Shown here: in pieces, positions 35,821-40,485 of the stretch
Layout: every line of letters starts with the position of its first letter
Numbering within the stretch: the first letter of the stretch is position 1
From: Hellea sp.
GTDB taxonomy: Bacteria > Pseudomonadota > Alphaproteobacteria > Caulobacterales > Maricaulaceae
Direction of reading: 5' to 3'
Assembly: GCA_020627655.1 (NCBI GenBank)
Contig: JAHDGM010000011.1
Coordinates: forward strand, 1-40,485
Length of the DNA: 40,485 bases
Notes under the pieces: model-generated
Told to the model about the DNA's origin: nothing
Database searches by the model: none
The model's input: only the letters and a program-made list of their open reading frames with translations
Program-made: the position numbers and the translations under genes

Positions 35821-36177
35821 TTAAAACAAACTGAAGAACTTTTTAGAAGCCTTTTCAGACCTATGCTCAACTGGCAGATCATTAGTGATAAGGACGTCAT
35901 TCACTTTTAAGTGATTTTCTAAGGTCTTCAATTGCCCCTTGCAATCCTCATGGGCCAAAACCAATCGAACCACATAAGTGGCAATATCAGCGTCTGAAGA
36001 CTTACGGGCTGGCACCATGGGAGCTTCTACACAGTTGAACATTTGTCTAGTCATGGTCAGTTTCGGATTGGGTTGCGGCTTCACGCTGGCGCAACCACTC
36101 AAAAGCCCCGTCAATAGGAGGAGACTCATAACAATTATAATTGTCCGGTAAGGATTGAATAAGAACATATGCATCAT
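35821..36177 (-). CDS. Outer-membrane spanin lipoprotein (Rz1-like)
   Basis: The outer spanin joins with the inner spanin to fuse the two membranes at the last step of phage lysis. The 118 residues have a lipoprotein signal (hydrophobic 12-25) and lipobox LLSGC, lipidated C29. A Pro/Lys-rich stretch follows, then the segment CVEAPMVPA ... HEDCKGQL, a pattern seen in Rz1-like proteins of many proteobacterial prophages. AAGGAAC precedes the start. The first 131 bases overlap the end of the inner spanin gene in another frame, the classic Rz/Rz1 arrangement. Confidence 0.85.
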   Translation of the reverse strand: MMHMFLFNPYRTIIIVMSLLLLTGLLSGCASVKPQPNPKLTMTRQMFNCVEAPMVPARKSSDADIATYVVRLVLAHEDCKGQLKTLENHLKVNDVLITNDLPVEHRSEKASKKFFSLF

Positions 36178-36418
36178 CTTGTTCCTTTTTATGCTGCTCG
36201 CGCCGGCTGAATTGTCGGCTCTGAGACGCTATGACAGAGTCTTTTTCGGCCACAACTTTCAAGGCCTGATCACGCTCAGTCTTGATTTCGTCTTTTTGCT
36301 GTTTGAGTGTTTTTACTTGCCAGTTTAAAATCAGAACGCCTGTAAAAAGCGCCATAAAAACATAGGCCGCGCCGCCGCTTAGTAACGTCTTCAAGCCTTG
36401 CGGGACTAGTTTCATCAT
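36047..36418 (-). CDS. Inner-membrane spanin (Rz-like)
   Basis: This 123-residue protein has one N-terminal membrane span (about 17-33). A strongly charged coiled coil (about 35-80) and a C-terminal region with a cysteine (NCYESPPI) follow. This is the topology of an inner spanin, with the coiled coil crossing the periplasm. Its ATG overlaps the stop of the DUF5675 gene (ATGA), and its 3' third encodes the outer spanin start in another frame. Confidence 0.85.
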   Translation of the reverse strand: MMKLVPQGLKTLLSGGAAYVFMALFTGVLILNWQVKTLKQQKDEIKTERDQALKVVAEKDSVIASQSRQFSRREQHKKEQDDAYVLIQSLPDNYNCYESPPIDGAFEWLRQREAATQSETDHD

Positions 36419-36855
36419 AAGTCATTATCCAAAAAATCTATGCAGGCCTCGCTAGCCCTAACAGAGTCAATGACGTGGCTGTAAAACCGGATATAGGTTT
36501 TCTTCGATTGCCAAACCGCCCAACTGTCAAAGTCAGCTCGCCCCAGCAATAGACAACCGGCTGTATCCCGCTCGAAATTACCCACATGAATCAATACCCA
36601 ACGAAAGTCAGGCACATCGACAACCTCAATCATGCCGCGATGAAAGTCCCCAAAAACACTGCTATATCGACTATGAAACCCGCCCGTGCGGCGAAGCCCT
36701 AAGCCATAATGTCCAGCCGGAATTCGCGTCTCGCCCGGGATCTTAAAACGCCGATATTCATCTTCCAGCCCATGACAGAAGAATTTTTCATTCACGTAGA
36801 CACGCGAAATTGTTACGTCGCGATTACTCACAACGCGGTCAACGGTAATTTTCAT
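36415..36855 (-). CDS. DUF5675-like protein, candidate phage endolysin
   Basis: The 146 residues show the features I associate with DUF5675: YVNEKFFCHGLEDEYR, GETRIPAGHYGL, and LIHVGN followed by DTAGCLLLG. There is no signal peptide or membrane span. H90 and C101 are placed much as in Cys/His L,D-transpeptidase-type active sites, which is inference only. The gene is directly upstream of, and overlapping, the spanin pair, where an endolysin is expected, and no other lysozyme, amidase or peptidase is in view. It could instead be a virion or tail-associated protein. Confidence 0.7.
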   Translation of the reverse strand: MKITVDRVVSNRDVTISRVYVNEKFFCHGLEDEYRRFKIPGETRIPAGHYGLGLRRTGGFHSRYSSVFGDFHRGMIEVVDVPDFRWVLIHVGNFERDTAGCLLLGRADFDSWAVWQSKKTYIRFYSHVIDSVRASEACIDFLDNDL

Positions 36856-36895: not shown

Positions 36896-38806
36896 TCACT
36901 CGATAGGCAACTGGTTCACTACCCACTCAGCCCCAACTGGTGAAAGATGAATTTGGTCACGATAGAGACTTTTGCCCGAAACTAAAAGCTTACATTCTTT
37001 TACATCCTCACAGAAGATATCACTCATAGAAATCGACAATGTGTTTTCTAACTTAAAATATGTGGGTTGAAGGGACTGTATTTCCGAATGAAATTCGTCC
37101 GCATGCGCAAACATATTATCCGCAAGATGATCATAAATTCTCTCATCAACCTTTGTGGGTATATCGCTATATTGCCCCAACAAACGAGGAACAATGTCAT
37201 CTCGAACGTGAGGGCCTAGGAGCATAATTTTCGCCTCACTCTTTTCAAGAAGCTCTAAGGTTCTACCCAAAAATATCCTCGTATTTCTTGAATTGTAAAA
37301 ATTCCCAGCAACAATTATTAAATCAAAACCCCTTGAATTTTGAACAAAGCTAATGGCCCTTAAATTATGCTCTTCACAATCTTTATTTGGACTTTTTTCC
37401 AATATTGGGGAACAAGCACTCTTCGTGATTTGAGAAATTTCCCAATTTTTAGATTTCGCCAGCTCGTTTAATGCAAGGCTATATTGTGCAGCGATACTAT
37501 CCCCGAAAAGGAGCACATTTAATTTCTTAGGCGATGTTTTTAAGCAGCCATTTTCCTTATATCTTTCAATGCTAACAATTTTATCTTCAAAAAAACATCG
37601 ATTTAACGCGTATTGATTCCCATTTTTATTTATAGCATTGCGAAGTTCGAGGGTATATTCAGACGGAGACACGAAGTGCCCCGCTCTATTAACCATATAA
37701 GTCGAAATAACCATATTAAAGATGAACAATATGATCACTGTACTCATAGCTTTCGAACTAAAACTATTGGATTTTTGTTCGCGCAATGGAGTTTCGACAT
37801 ATCGATATAACAGAAAGCCAGAAATCAAGCAGACAACTAACTTTACAACAATTAATATTATCTCATTGGGTGAGAATTTCGGAAATAGAAGTGGCCAAAA
37901 GATAATTATTGGCCAATGAACCAAATAAAGCGAATAAGAAAAATCACCGATTAATTTAAAAGGCTTCAAAAATACAAGTGTAAGGGGTTTAAGTTTTAAA
38001 TCACACGCAAAAGTTATGCTAACAGGTAACAAAACAAATAATGCAATGACTCCAGGAATTTTCGATGAATCGTTCAAAACGAAAAAACACATAGATGTTA
38101 TTAGTATTGAAATAAGAAAGGTAGTTTTTGCCCATCTAGAATTGGTTCCATACTTTCTAACAAGTAATGCAAAGAACCCTCCAATCGCAAACTCAAATAT
38201 ACGAAATGGCAATAGATAAAAAGCCGTGGAAGAGTTAATCCGAACAAAATATTCTGAACTAATAATAGATATCCCAAACAGGCATAAGATCAGAACAAAC
38301 AAGGCTTTTTCGCTCTTAAATATCCTTGAGAAACCAAATAAAATAAGAGGCCAAATTAAGTAGAATTGTTCCTCTACCCCTAGTGACCAAGTATGTAAAA
38401 GGGGGTCAATCGAAGATGATGTATCAAAATAATCCGTAGTACGCCAAAAGAAGAAGTTACTTACCGCGAATATAGCAGCGATGCTAGATTTAGCCGTCGT
38501 CTCAACTCTATCGGGAGGGAAAAATACAATAGCCGCCACTAAAGTCAGTGCTATTACTGTATATAAGGCAGGGAAAAGCCTTTTCACCCTTCGTTTGAAG
38601 AACTTTTGCATTGACCAAGTACCTAATTCGACCTGATCCATAATATGTTTAGTCATAAGATAGCCAGAGACCGCAAAGAATACGTCAACACCAAGATACC
38701 CACCTGGAAGCAATTGAGGCTTTATGTGGAATATGACCACTGCAAGTACAGCAATGCAACGCCATATTTGAATATCAACTCTTTGTCGCTTCTTAACTTC
38801 TAACAT
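36896..38806 (-). CDS. AT3-SGNH surface-glycan O-acyltransferase (OafA-like)
   Basis: This is a 636-residue membrane enzyme expected to acetylate O-antigen or another surface glycan. The N-terminal AT3 domain has about ten spans, with H27 (VIFHIKP), VFFAVSGYL, the RRVKRLFPALY block and LHTWSLGVEEQFYLIWP. An eleventh hydrophobic segment (about 353-372) links to a periplasmic SGNH domain with GDSIA (435-439) and the C-terminal DQIHLSP dyad. Base composition is clearly more AT-rich than neighbours. It lies inside the phage late region, between tail and lysis genes, with 173 bases in front. Confidence 0.93.
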   Translation of the reverse strand: MLEVKKRQRVDIQIWRCIAVLAVVIFHIKPQLLPGGYLGVDVFFAVSGYLMTKHIMDQVELGTWSMQKFFKRRVKRLFPALYTVIALTLVAAIVFFPPDRVETTAKSSIAAIFAVSNFFFWRTTDYFDTSSSIDPLLHTWSLGVEEQFYLIWPLILFGFSRIFKSEKALFVLILCLFGISIISSEYFVRINSSTAFYLLPFRIFEFAIGGFFALLVRKYGTNSRWAKTTFLISILITSMCFFVLNDSSKIPGVIALFVLLPVSITFACDLKLKPLTLVFLKPFKLIGDFSYSLYLVHWPIIIFWPLLFPKFSPNEIILIVVKLVVCLISGFLLYRYVETPLREQKSNSFSSKAMSTVIILFIFNMVISTYMVNRAGHFVSPSEYTLELRNAINKNGNQYALNRCFFEDKIVSIERYKENGCLKTSPKKLNVLLFGDSIAAQYSLALNELAKSKNWEISQITKSACSPILEKSPNKDCEEHNLRAISFVQNSRGFDLIIVAGNFYNSRNTRIFLGRTLELLEKSEAKIMLLGPHVRDDIVPRLLGQYSDIPTKVDERIYDHLADNMFAHADEFHSEIQSLQPTYFKLENTLSISMSDIFCEDVKECKLLVSGKSLYRDQIHLSPVGAEWVVNQLPIE

Positions 38807-38979: not shown

Positions 38980-39687
38980 TTAAATCAATGTAACATTGCT
39001 AGAATACCGATGATGTGAATTTGGATTCGCGCCTGCGGCTACACTATGAAAAGCAATTTCAGAAATGTTGGACAACGAAGTTGCATTTAAGTCCGCATGC
39101 AGACGTGAACCATCTGAAGCAAAAAATAGGCGGGCGGAATTCGTAAGCGACTGTGTAATAGTTGATCCATATATATATATTGCCGCACTCCCTACCCCAT
39201 TCCAGAGTCCAAACATCCCATACGGACCTTTTGAACTGTCCAAATGAATATCCACAGAATTTAAATAGAGGCCGCTGCCGCCACGCATCCAAAACCCACC
39301 AGGCAGACTGCCGTGGTTACTTGAATCCATAACTGTGATTTTTGCATTTGTCGCACCAGTAGCTTTTGAAATATTCAAAAACGTATTGCCTTTCGTCGAT
39401 ACGTAATAATCCATTACCACATCACCTATTACGTAAACATAGTTTTGCTTATTAAACTCCATTAATTCACAGACACGCTGCCATGTTTGCACAGCATTCC
39501 CGACCTGCTTACCATCATTTAAGTCGTTGCCGTTTTCACTCCAATAGATAACGACATTAGTAATCAGTATATCTAAAACCCCATCAACTCGCCCTGTATC
39601 CACAGATGAGTTACCATCATCCCCCTTAACCCCTTGATTGCCTTTCGGACCTCTAGGAACAAATATCACTCTACTTTGCGCTGTCAT
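38980..39687 (-). CDS. Phage tail fibre/spike-like protein with collagen-like repeat
   Basis: The 235 residues open with a short segment (MTAQSRVIFVPR) and then G-x-y triplets (GPKGNQGVKGDDG, about 13-25), a collagen-like trimerising stretch. The rest is rich in Ser, Gly, Asn and beta-branched residues with evenly spaced short strands, consistent with a beta-helix or beta-sandwich receptor-binding domain. It resembles distal tail fibre or spike proteins, though I recognise no exact family. The start overlaps the preceding gene by 4 bases (ATGA). Confidence 0.7.
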   Translation of the reverse strand: MTAQSRVIFVPRGPKGNQGVKGDDGNSSVDTGRVDGVLDILITNVVIYWSENGNDLNDGKQVGNAVQTWQRVCELMEFNKQNYVYVIGDVVMDYYVSTKGNTFLNISKATGATNAKITVMDSSNHGSLPGGFWMRGGSGLYLNSVDIHLDSSKGPYGMFGLWNGVGSAAIYIYGSTITQSLTNSARLFFASDGSRLHADLNATSLSNISEIAFHSVAAGANPNSHHRYSSNVTLI

Positions 39688-40133
39688 TGAGCAGTCTCCG
39701 TCACATGAAAATTGCCTGCCAAAATCACATTTTGATCAGGAGTTGTTTGTCTTAAGGCGTAGTATAGCTGGACACCTTCAATATTATTTTCAGATTTGGG
39801 TAAATTGGCAAACGCCGTTTGCGCCGAAGTTATGTTAATCACTGTAGTCTTGACCGTATCGGTCAAAGCTTTACCACAAGGGAGCCACTCGGCTTGATAA
39901 CGACACTCATCAACCAAATTTTGATAAGTATTTGTCTCGATTGTTTTGCTTACAACCAGACTAGCTACGCGCTCTTCCGCCCCGGGATATAAAGAGACCA
40001 CACATTCCAGCGCCGCGCCGGTAAGATCCAGTTCATGAAAATCCATAGTCGGGCTGTTGAAATCTTCTGAGCGGCAAACGCCCAAGTCAAAAGATGGTAC
40101 TCCGGCAAGTGCCAGTTGATTAGAATAGATCAT
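39684..40133 (-). CDS. Uncharacterised phage tail-associated protein
   Basis: This 149-residue protein of unknown family has no signal peptide or membrane span. It has mixed alpha/beta character, with a stretch (SKTIETNTYQNLVDECRYQ) and a C-terminal region (VILAGNFHVTETAQ). It lies between a beta-rich phage protein and the collagen-like fibre gene, so tail fibre assembly or attachment is the best contextual guess. AAGGAAC, which overlaps the stop of the preceding gene, is its ribosome-binding site. Confidence 0.6.
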   Translation of the reverse strand: MIYSNQLALAGVPSFDLGVCRSEDFNSPTMDFHELDLTGAALECVVSLYPGAEERVASLVVSKTIETNTYQNLVDECRYQAEWLPCGKALTDTVKTTVINITSAQTAFANLPKSENNIEGVQLYYALRQTTPDQNVILAGNFHVTETAQ

Positions 40134-40141
40134 AATGTTCC

Positions 40142-40485
40142 TTAAAGACCGTTATTTTCGTTCATGATGAAAACAGGTATCTGCACTTCGGCTGTATCCC
40201 CGCCATCGGTCACAACAGCCTTATACGTCGCAAACTTCCCATTACCCAATACAGCACTGAATTGCGTTGTAGAACTCGTTGGGTTTGTCACTGTGAAATC
40301 ATCACCGGATATTTTGACATAAGAAATGGTCTCCGCCCCTGATCCATTATTGACGGTCAAAGTAATACTGTTTGTGTAAATGGTTTGGGCCTCAATTACC
40401 CCGTCGCCCCAAGCCGATGCCGGTGAAACCGTAACGCTCAGATTCCCCCCACTGGTGACAACATTTTCAATATTGGCATCCTGAG
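40142..40485 (-). CDS. Phage structural protein, beta-rich C-terminal part (start outside window)
   Basis: The reading frame is open from the window edge to a stop at 40142, giving 113 complete codons. The sequence is beta-rich (for example LTVNNGSGAETISYVKIS and TYKAVVTDGGDTAEVQIPVF), like an immunoglobulin-type or carbohydrate-binding domain of a tail protein. No start is visible; the apparent TTG start at 40360 is internal. Position upstream of the fibre genes supports a tail role. Confidence 0.6.
   Translation of the reverse strand, partial: QDANIENVVTSGGNLSVTVSPASAWGDGVIEAQTIYTNSITLTVNNGSGAETISYVKISGDDFTVTNPTSSTTQFSAVLGNGKFATYKAVVTDGGDTAEVQIPVFIMNENNGL

Follow-up and report, generated by a model that had tools for sequence, protein, structure and literature searches.

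A DUF5675 protein with a predicted YkuD-type L,D-peptidase fold is the probable endolysin of a tailed prophage in Hellea

The stretch of DNA analysed here (the window) comprises the first 40485 bases of the 61267-base contig C9 from the Hellea genome G000 (2.59 Mb, 89 contigs). At positions 36415-36855 of its minus strand, a gene with an ATG start encodes a 146-aa protein, the candidate endolysin and putative YkuD-like cysteine L,D-peptidase, with the residues E31, H90, T98-x-G-C101 and S117. Open reading frames of at least 146 aa were obtained in 8 out of 500 trials with an iid-shuffled stretch of 1200 bases; the length by itself thus arises in shuffled DNA, and the evidence for a gene is therefore the family match. 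The product is a member of the Pfam family DUF5675 (PF18925), with E = 2.3e-24 and 85.9 bits against a curated cut-off of 26.7, and it matches phrog_1501, a PHROG family of 'unknown function', with E = 7.8e-23, in agreement with the DUF5675-type protein of the original prediction. It has no evident signal peptide or transmembrane segment (maximal 19-residue hydropathy of 0.89).

The DUF5675 gene overlaps the following gene by exactly 4 bases, as had been predicted and was measured again here. The latter (36047-36418, minus strand) encodes an Rz-like inner-membrane spanin of 123 aa, in which an N-terminal transmembrane segment with a hydropathy peak of 1.95 at residue 13 precedes a charged helix, and which shows weak matches to phrog_89 (E = 0.0094) and phrog_739 (E = 0.029). 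An Rz1-like outer-membrane spanin lipoprotein of 118 aa (35821-36177, minus strand) begins within the Rz gene in another frame; it contains the lipobox LSGC, matches the Rz-like phrog_456 (E = 6.7e-6), and hits PF23793 (LysC) below the cut-off (E = 0.0041). Judged by sequence, the two genes look like a two-component Rz/Rz1 spanin pair, of which Rz1 has a fair match and Rz a weak one. Both have relatives at the same place in five other genomes (L007, L008, L009, L046 and L050). No recognised holin adjoins the DUF5675 gene of the window in the PHROG and Pfam scans.

Between this lysis cassette and the tail genes, on the side where the relatives possess the holin, there is a gene for an AT3-SGNH acyltransferase of 636 aa, an O-antigen acetylase (36896-38806, minus strand; phrog_6705, E = 4.7e-124; PF01757 and PF19040), which is likely a lysogenic-conversion gene. 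Three further ORFs (38980-40485, minus strand) form the end of a prophage tail module; their own family matches are weak, and their counterparts in the genome G356 follow tape-measure and tail genes of a prophage with Pfam matches to capsid, portal, terminase and tape-measure families. The prophage runs past the window up to the contig end at 61267, which falls within a portal-like gene. On the non-tail side, the cassette adjoins an ftsB-like gene (PF04977 DivIC, E = 5.9e-7), followed by genes that we take to encode pyruvate dehydrogenase. Inside the tail module, a SocA/Panacea antitoxin-like gene (PF13274, E = 2.9e-19; L002 7943-8392, about 48342-48791 of C9) adjoins a gene for a small membrane protein, and the two may represent a toxin-antitoxin pair or a hidden holin. 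Proteins of 141-143 aa without a Pfam match are encoded at L002 1915-2346 and L050 4519-4944; they are presumably acetyltransferase-like, and related tail modules presumably have an NlpC/P60 peptidase at this place.

Four other genomes of the same genus (L007, L008, L009 and L046) carry a DUF5675 gene beside ftsB and pdhA, the contigs L047-L049 being seemingly identical to L007-L009. Among them, L008, L009 and L046 have a holin of the phrog_2359 family directly upstream of DUF5675 (E = 1.4e-9, 2.6e-14 and 3.1e-15, respectively) and share the order holin, DUF5675, Rz and Rz1 at the same site; the 4-base overlap of DUF5675 and Rz is retained in L046, and other membrane genes stand upstream of DUF5675 in L007. 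Downstream of DUF5675, each of the four genomes has relatives of the window's Rz and Rz1, as does G356 (L050), where the tail genes of a related prophage at a different site end in a series of DUF1353, DUF5675, a 66-aa ORF and the spanin pair. The DUF1353 gene of this prophage (L050 8736-9107; one PF07087 match, E = 3.3e-8) may belong to the lysis region; DUF1353 is also annotated under or beside the DUF5675 match in Campylobacter phage PC22 (hit H25).

Within the order, the phrog_2359 holin was detected in four out of 299 genomes, which all belong to one other genus; the genome of the window is not among them. Behind this holin in the other genus, with one or two small genes in between, lies an N-acetylmuramidase (PF11860; E = 3.7e-54 in L269 and 3.3e-54 in L270). 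The corresponding place is occupied by a Peptidase_M15_3 protein (PF08291, E = 8.4e-17) in L268 and, with matches under the cut-off, by a GH19-like protein (E = 0.0018) in L266 and a CHAP/NlpC-like protein (E = 4e-5) in L267. Classical Gram-negative phage endolysins (PF11860, M15, GH19 and CHAP/NlpC) have families and folds other than those of DUF5675 and cut bonds other than the one predicted for it; what they share with it is the position after a phrog_2359 holin. Endolysin genes appear to replace one another at this position, and DUF5675 is one more of its occupants. The endolysin position assigned in the original prediction is thereby strengthened from two sides, namely the shared cassette, with spanins in the window and with holin and spanins in L008, L009 and L046, and the exchangeability with known endolysins that is seen through the phrog_2359 slot. 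Relatives of the holin of the window's genus and of the G356 portal were not found in the viral contigs.

A recognised endolysin elsewhere in the same element would speak against this assignment. Among 40 prophage ORFs (30 from G356 and 10 from the window contig; 19 Pfam families), we identified no established peptidoglycan hydrolase, DUF5675 being the sole candidate. The Pfam scan of eight window ORFs likewise revealed no other peptidoglycan hydrolase, and that of ten ORFs from the rest of the contig gave the SocA-like match only. The earlier observation that no other such enzyme is in view holds for all three sets, within an element that is cut by contig ends and was scanned in part: the hydrolase scan of the window's contig, which is 61267 bases long, reached to about 54000, and the left part of the G356 prophage and the right part of the window prophage lie beyond the contig ends. 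Outside the order, 99 ORFs of at least 75 aa from Vibrio phage Virtus (OK381870) yielded no established hydrolase family among the matches listed (25 of 26 families), the scan covering the genome apart from six named proteins, the tape measure, the DNA polymerase and short ORFs. For a Thiohalocapsa phage, scanned apart from four named proteins, the primase and ORFs under 80 aa, 53 ORFs (24 families) contained no established endolysin, besides one Peptidase_C93 match below the cut-off that lies four genes from DUF5675.

On a larger scale, Phage_lysozyme or Amidase_2 was matched in none of 38 viral contigs with DUF5675 (0 and 0, respectively) vs 13 of 46 control contigs (2 and 11; p = 1.6e-4, one-sided), a difference that is indicative only, the controls being unmatched for host and many contigs of either set being possibly fragments. 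Contigs of at least 30 kb held 41 non-redundant DUF5675 loci, of which 38 (all except L157, L201 and L214) made up the DUF5675 set. The control set comprised 46 loci on contigs of 30-120 kb, out of 80 listed, that carry a PolA-motif DNA pattern, which was used instead of the DNA polymerase route since the latter gave two loci.

The original prediction had also singled out H90 and C101 as a conserved-looking pair, and both residues occur at these positions and are near-universal in the family. Among 180 distinct DUF5675 proteins, H90 is present in all and C101 in 178, i.e., in every protein with a residue at that column (L152 and L202 have a gap there). Thr or Ser occupies the position of T98 in 174 of the 180 proteins, and G100, S117 and E31 are retained in 177, 178 and 174, respectively. 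The invariant positions across 27 diverse members also include H90 and C101. It should be noted that the counts for this pair are somewhat biased because part of the set was found by patterns containing H or C; such patterns were used in one of the two viral-contig scans feeding it, and the other scan used neither residue.

The AlphaFold2 model of the protein, built from an alignment of 83 DUF5675 members (the window protein and loci from viral and genome collections), has a mean pLDDT of 96.8 and a pTM of 0.90. Its comparison by VIA-align with 998 of 1000 chains gave Z >= 2 in 44 cases and Z >= 8 in six. Among the 34 entries listed, 27 have titles naming L,D-transpeptidase, many of which are the same LdtMt2, and six further entries are Pgp2 (Z = 9.4), Tlde1a (8.3), Csd6 (7.8) and DpaA (6.7); 33 of the 34 thus represent one enzyme class, that of the YkuD fold, and 4xxt is ambiguous by title. 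A Z under 8 can reflect a common arrangement, and the YkuD-fold reading is persuasive, despite middling Z values, because the list is so uniform. Foldseek gave no PDB match at E of 0.001 or better, with RNase E and acetyltransferases in the top rows, and 13 such matches among viral models, several of them named DUF5675 and one being cr116_1, 'L,D-carboxypeptidase/transpeptidase'. The fold search suggested with the original prediction was therefore favourable with VIA-align, which returned the YkuD class with Z up to 9.4, and not with Foldseek alone, which had no significant match in the PDB.

Profile comparisons point in the same direction. We collected YkuD domains from alphaproteobacterial genomes (25 out of 31 loci were usable) and split them into subsets by motif. 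As single comparisons with hhalign, DUF5675 matched a YkuD subset of five sequences at 86% (E = 5.1e-6) and five Tlde1_dom sequences, taken from 7 loci, at 81.7% (E = 1.1e-5); the match was weak with two other YkuD subsets (3.6% and 1.8%) and reached 56.6% with all YkuD. As a yardstick, Tlde1_dom matched the same YkuD subset at 15.8% and all YkuD at 91.6%, and reversed-profile controls gave at most 0.2%. In both good alignments, IP-x-G falls on (T)P-x-G, H90 coincides with the catalytic His and T-x-G-C101 with [ST]-x-G-C, so that the catalytic His is followed by [ST]-x-G-C in the order required for the YkuD superfamily. The spacing between His and Cys is shorter than in the motif HXX14-17-(S/T)HGC given in the accessible text of PMC9638812, where the motif residues of Tlde1a are H121, H129 and C131. 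The second His of S-H-G-C is absent from the window protein, which has A99, and likewise from all five Tlde1_dom sequences compared, although Tlde1a itself has H129.

At the level of single sequences, the window protein does not reach the curated cut-offs of Pfam YkuD (PF03734) and Tlde1_dom (PF10908) and had no match to either in the Pfam scan. Pfam scans of 27 single DUF5675 members gave Tlde1_dom in three (best E = 0.002) and YkuD in one (0.039), matches that count for little because unrelated families score equally well, among them DUF3189 in two members (E = 0.0016). A profile of 27 diverse members against PDB sequences produced chance-level matches only. Taking the model, the uniform VIA-align list and the residue placement by hhalign together, the assignment of the DUF5675 protein as a predicted YkuD-fold enzyme with an invariant Cys/His pair is computationally well supported, in line with the L,D-transpeptidase-like active site that had been suggested for the segment around H90 and C101. 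Enzymes of the YkuD type are described as having L,D-transpeptidase, L,D-carboxypeptidase or L,D-endopeptidase activity in the available part of a review (PMC12729407).

Among characterised proteins, Pgp2 (6xj6) and Csd6 (4xzz) share the predicted fold (Z = 9.4 and 7.8; 111-112 residues aligned) and the Cys/His class with DUF5675, but they are longer and have 11-15% identity to it, whereas the phage protein amounts to the domain alone, 146 aa in length, with no signal peptide apparent. Both are presumably host cell-shape proteins, as the PDB titles say for Pgp2, and we take the activity of Pgp2 to be that of an L,D-carboxypeptidase. Csd6 is an L,D-carboxypeptidase as well, according to the text available for PMC9638812. 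The same source covers Tlde1 (PF10908), an antibacterial L,D-carboxypeptidase/transpeptidase that shares the predicted fold (Z = 8.3) and the aligned P-x-G, H and [ST]-x-G-C but, unlike DUF5675, is a secretion-system effector with an immunity protein; Tlde1a is reported there to have L,D-carboxypeptidase and D-Ala exchange activity and to make cells swell and lyse when expressed in the periplasm.

Part of the DUF5675 family has been annotated before. In GenBank, gp30 of crAss001 and many crAss-like relatives are already labelled L,D-carboxypeptidase/transpeptidase, and the DUF5675 gene of these phages lies two genes downstream of, or next to, an annotated 'lysis regulatory protein/holin'; gp30 comes from different phages than the protein studied here, and its label is a sequence annotation. 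The view that the family has no accepted function is hence correct for Pfam and PHROGs and does not extend to these GenBank records. The 2018 crAss001 paper relied on HHpred annotation and assigned three genes to lytic functions, this enzyme not being named in the text accessible (PMC6235969). Within PhaLP, a database of phage lytic proteins, YkuD is a rare catalytic class of 10 proteins, and PF18925 does not occur in the main text accessible for the PhaLP paper (PMC8310338); compared with this category, DUF5675 would add a far larger family. The depositors of the Thiohalocapsa phage label its DUF5675 gene 'peptidoglycan hydrolase' and place an Rz-like spanin two genes away, for which PHROGs give no match, the next gene having a weak Rz-like match (0.0085). 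The record of Campylobacter phage CJIE4-1 consists mostly of hypothetical proteins. Virtus lyses its host, and its ORF1 is DUF5675, followed by ORF2 with a TM helix; the available text of the Virtus paper names no lysin (PMC9229204). In phage R21Y, ORF73 is likewise DUF5675, and ORF74 is listed with the proteins that have TM helices, as far as the accessible text goes (PMC10671443). The literature accessible under the family name contains neither a discussion of DUF5675 function nor an assay of any member.

The family is sporadic in bacterial genomes, with PF18925 in 13 of 299 genomes of the order and relatives of the window protein in 13 of 137 genomes of the family, including five of the ten same-genus genomes listed, a pattern that fits a mobile gene. 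Two viral-contig scans, which may overlap, gave at least 577 and at least 576 DUF5675 relatives. Among 50,697 phage records, 182 match DUF5675, mostly from Vibrio, Bacteroides/crAss-like and Campylobacter phages, with a few microviruses.

We surveyed the neighbours of DUF5675 at 30 of 33 and 36 of 46 non-redundant loci; the simple gene caller missed the others. Two same-strand genes were considered on either side of DUF5675, and they include one for a small membrane protein at 20 of the 30 and 33 of the 36 loci; for control genes of 100-250 aa on the same contigs, the counts are 21 of 95 and 11 of 73. No such neighbour is present at 13 of the 66 scored loci. Recognised holins directly after DUF5675 include those of L003, L067 and L101 (phrog_3427), and the other small neighbours belong to families of unknown function, have weak matches or have none. 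The PHROG scan, which covered neighbours other than those upstream and those of the crAss-like set, gave at least seven holin matches among 91 ORFs (25 of 89 PHROG families listed). An association mainly with tail genes and without lysis genes, which would have counted against the original prediction, is thus not what the survey revealed. Exceptions are Pseudomonas phage Cygsa01 and Vibrio phage Kuja, where DUF5675 belongs to the head module, overlaps the portal gene at the end of the latter and has no annotated lysis gene within 5 kb. These portal-adjacent copies led us to drop the generalisation that DUF5675 always adjoins lysis genes. The annotation of Kuja, in which most features are hypothetical, names a baseplate tail lysozyme as the sole lysozyme, and the DUF5675 gene may still be the endolysin of this phage.

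Since the predicted fold, the alignment of catalytic residues, the cassette order and the slot swap agree, we consider it likely, with about three chances in four, that the product of the gene at 36415-36855 is a YkuD-type L,D-peptidase which serves a tailed prophage as its endolysin. With neither a signal peptide nor a TM segment in evidence, the protein would remain cytoplasmic and reach the periplasm once a holin has opened the inner membrane. Its predicted target there is the L,D amide bond that links diaminopimelate-3 to D-Ala-4 in a stem peptide, which YkuD-fold L,D-carboxypeptidases and L,D-endopeptidases also attack; C101 would carry out the attack, with H90 as its activator. Cutting of this Dap-D-Ala bond inside a 4-3 crosslink would sever the crosslink and weaken the sacculus, whereupon the spanin pair would disrupt the outer membrane. 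We infer the bond cut from the fold and the motif, and the lytic action is likewise an inference. To our knowledge, L,D-endopeptidase is an unusual bond specificity for phage lysis.

Among the points against an endolysin are that the enzymes nearest in fold are mainly carboxypeptidases, and that trimming alone need not lyse a cell. In one alternative, DUF5675 would be an enzyme of the YkuD fold that acts as an L,D-carboxypeptidase or exchanges amino acids and so alters the wall of the host, either late in infection or to counter superinfection, lysis being left to an unrecognised protein. The presence of L,D-carboxypeptidases (Pgp2 and Csd6) among the best fold matches, the trimming and exchange of D-Ala by Tlde1a (available text of PMC9638812) and the weak Peptidase_C93 match near DUF5675 in the Thiohalocapsa phage are in favour of such a role. 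We nevertheless regard it as unlikely, as DUF5675 occupies the place that recognised endolysins have after a phrog_2359 holin, no established hydrolase family occurs among the proteins scanned in three phages, and Tlde1a in the periplasm is itself lytic in the same source. A virion or assembly enzyme of the head or tail, adjoining lysis genes incidentally in some phages, would account for the overlap with the portal gene in Cygsa01 and Kuja; the enrichment of small membrane-protein neighbours, the joint presence of holin and spanins in the cassette of the window's genus and the restriction of named lysozymes in Kuja to a tail lysozyme, which leaves DUF5675 free to be the endolysin there, make this role very improbable. 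Least probable of all, with hardly any weight, is that the YkuD likeness reflects a common beta arrangement and that DUF5675 is not an enzyme of this class: the lack of a significant Foldseek match in the PDB, the middling Z values and the weak, mixed Pfam scans would be expected then, whereas the convergence of 33 of 34 VIA-align entries on one enzyme class and the match of the invariant residues H90 and C101 with the catalytic pair in two profile alignments would not.

Beyond the endolysin reading for the window gene, we tentatively propose, at somewhat less than even odds, that DUF5675 is a large unnamed class of endolysins, namely cysteine L,D-endopeptidases of YkuD descent that cut Dap-D-Ala in crosslinks and so lyse Gram-negative cells, and that alphaproteobacterial prophages, lytic vibriophages, crAss-like phages and perhaps microviruses adopted it in place of lysozymes and amidases. 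The job of an endolysin is known, as is the YkuD enzyme class from hosts and a handful of phage proteins; what looks new is the assignment of the DUF5675 family to this class and its scale, which we did not find in the literature accessible. If true, the hundreds of relatives from the viral-contig scans would gain a function where Pfam and PHROGs call it unknown, phages published without a lysin, such as Virtus, would gain a candidate for the missing one, and a possible enzyme to study or attack Dap-type walls would become available.

Some members of the family are found in other contexts. At L027 5581-9200 (G108), a DUF5675 gene 55% identical to that of the window, seemingly outside a phage region as judged by eye, lies upstream of genes for a 686-aa protein and a 308-aa hydrolase-like protein on the same strand. 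The 686-aa protein, which has no PDB sequence match, is presumably caspase/peptidase C14-like, and the locus may represent a lysin recruited to a defence or cell-death operon. L026 8142-8918 (G223), by eye also outside a phage region, encodes a 258-aa protein that combines DUF5675 with an apparent N-terminal signal peptide and a C-terminal extension and is perhaps a periplasmic host protein. Finally, microviruses, ssDNA phages of about 5 kb, also encode DUF5675 (L058 206-640, hits H106 and H116). Small inhibitors of wall synthesis are known from phiX174, and the microviruses with DUF5675 would carry an enzyme instead.
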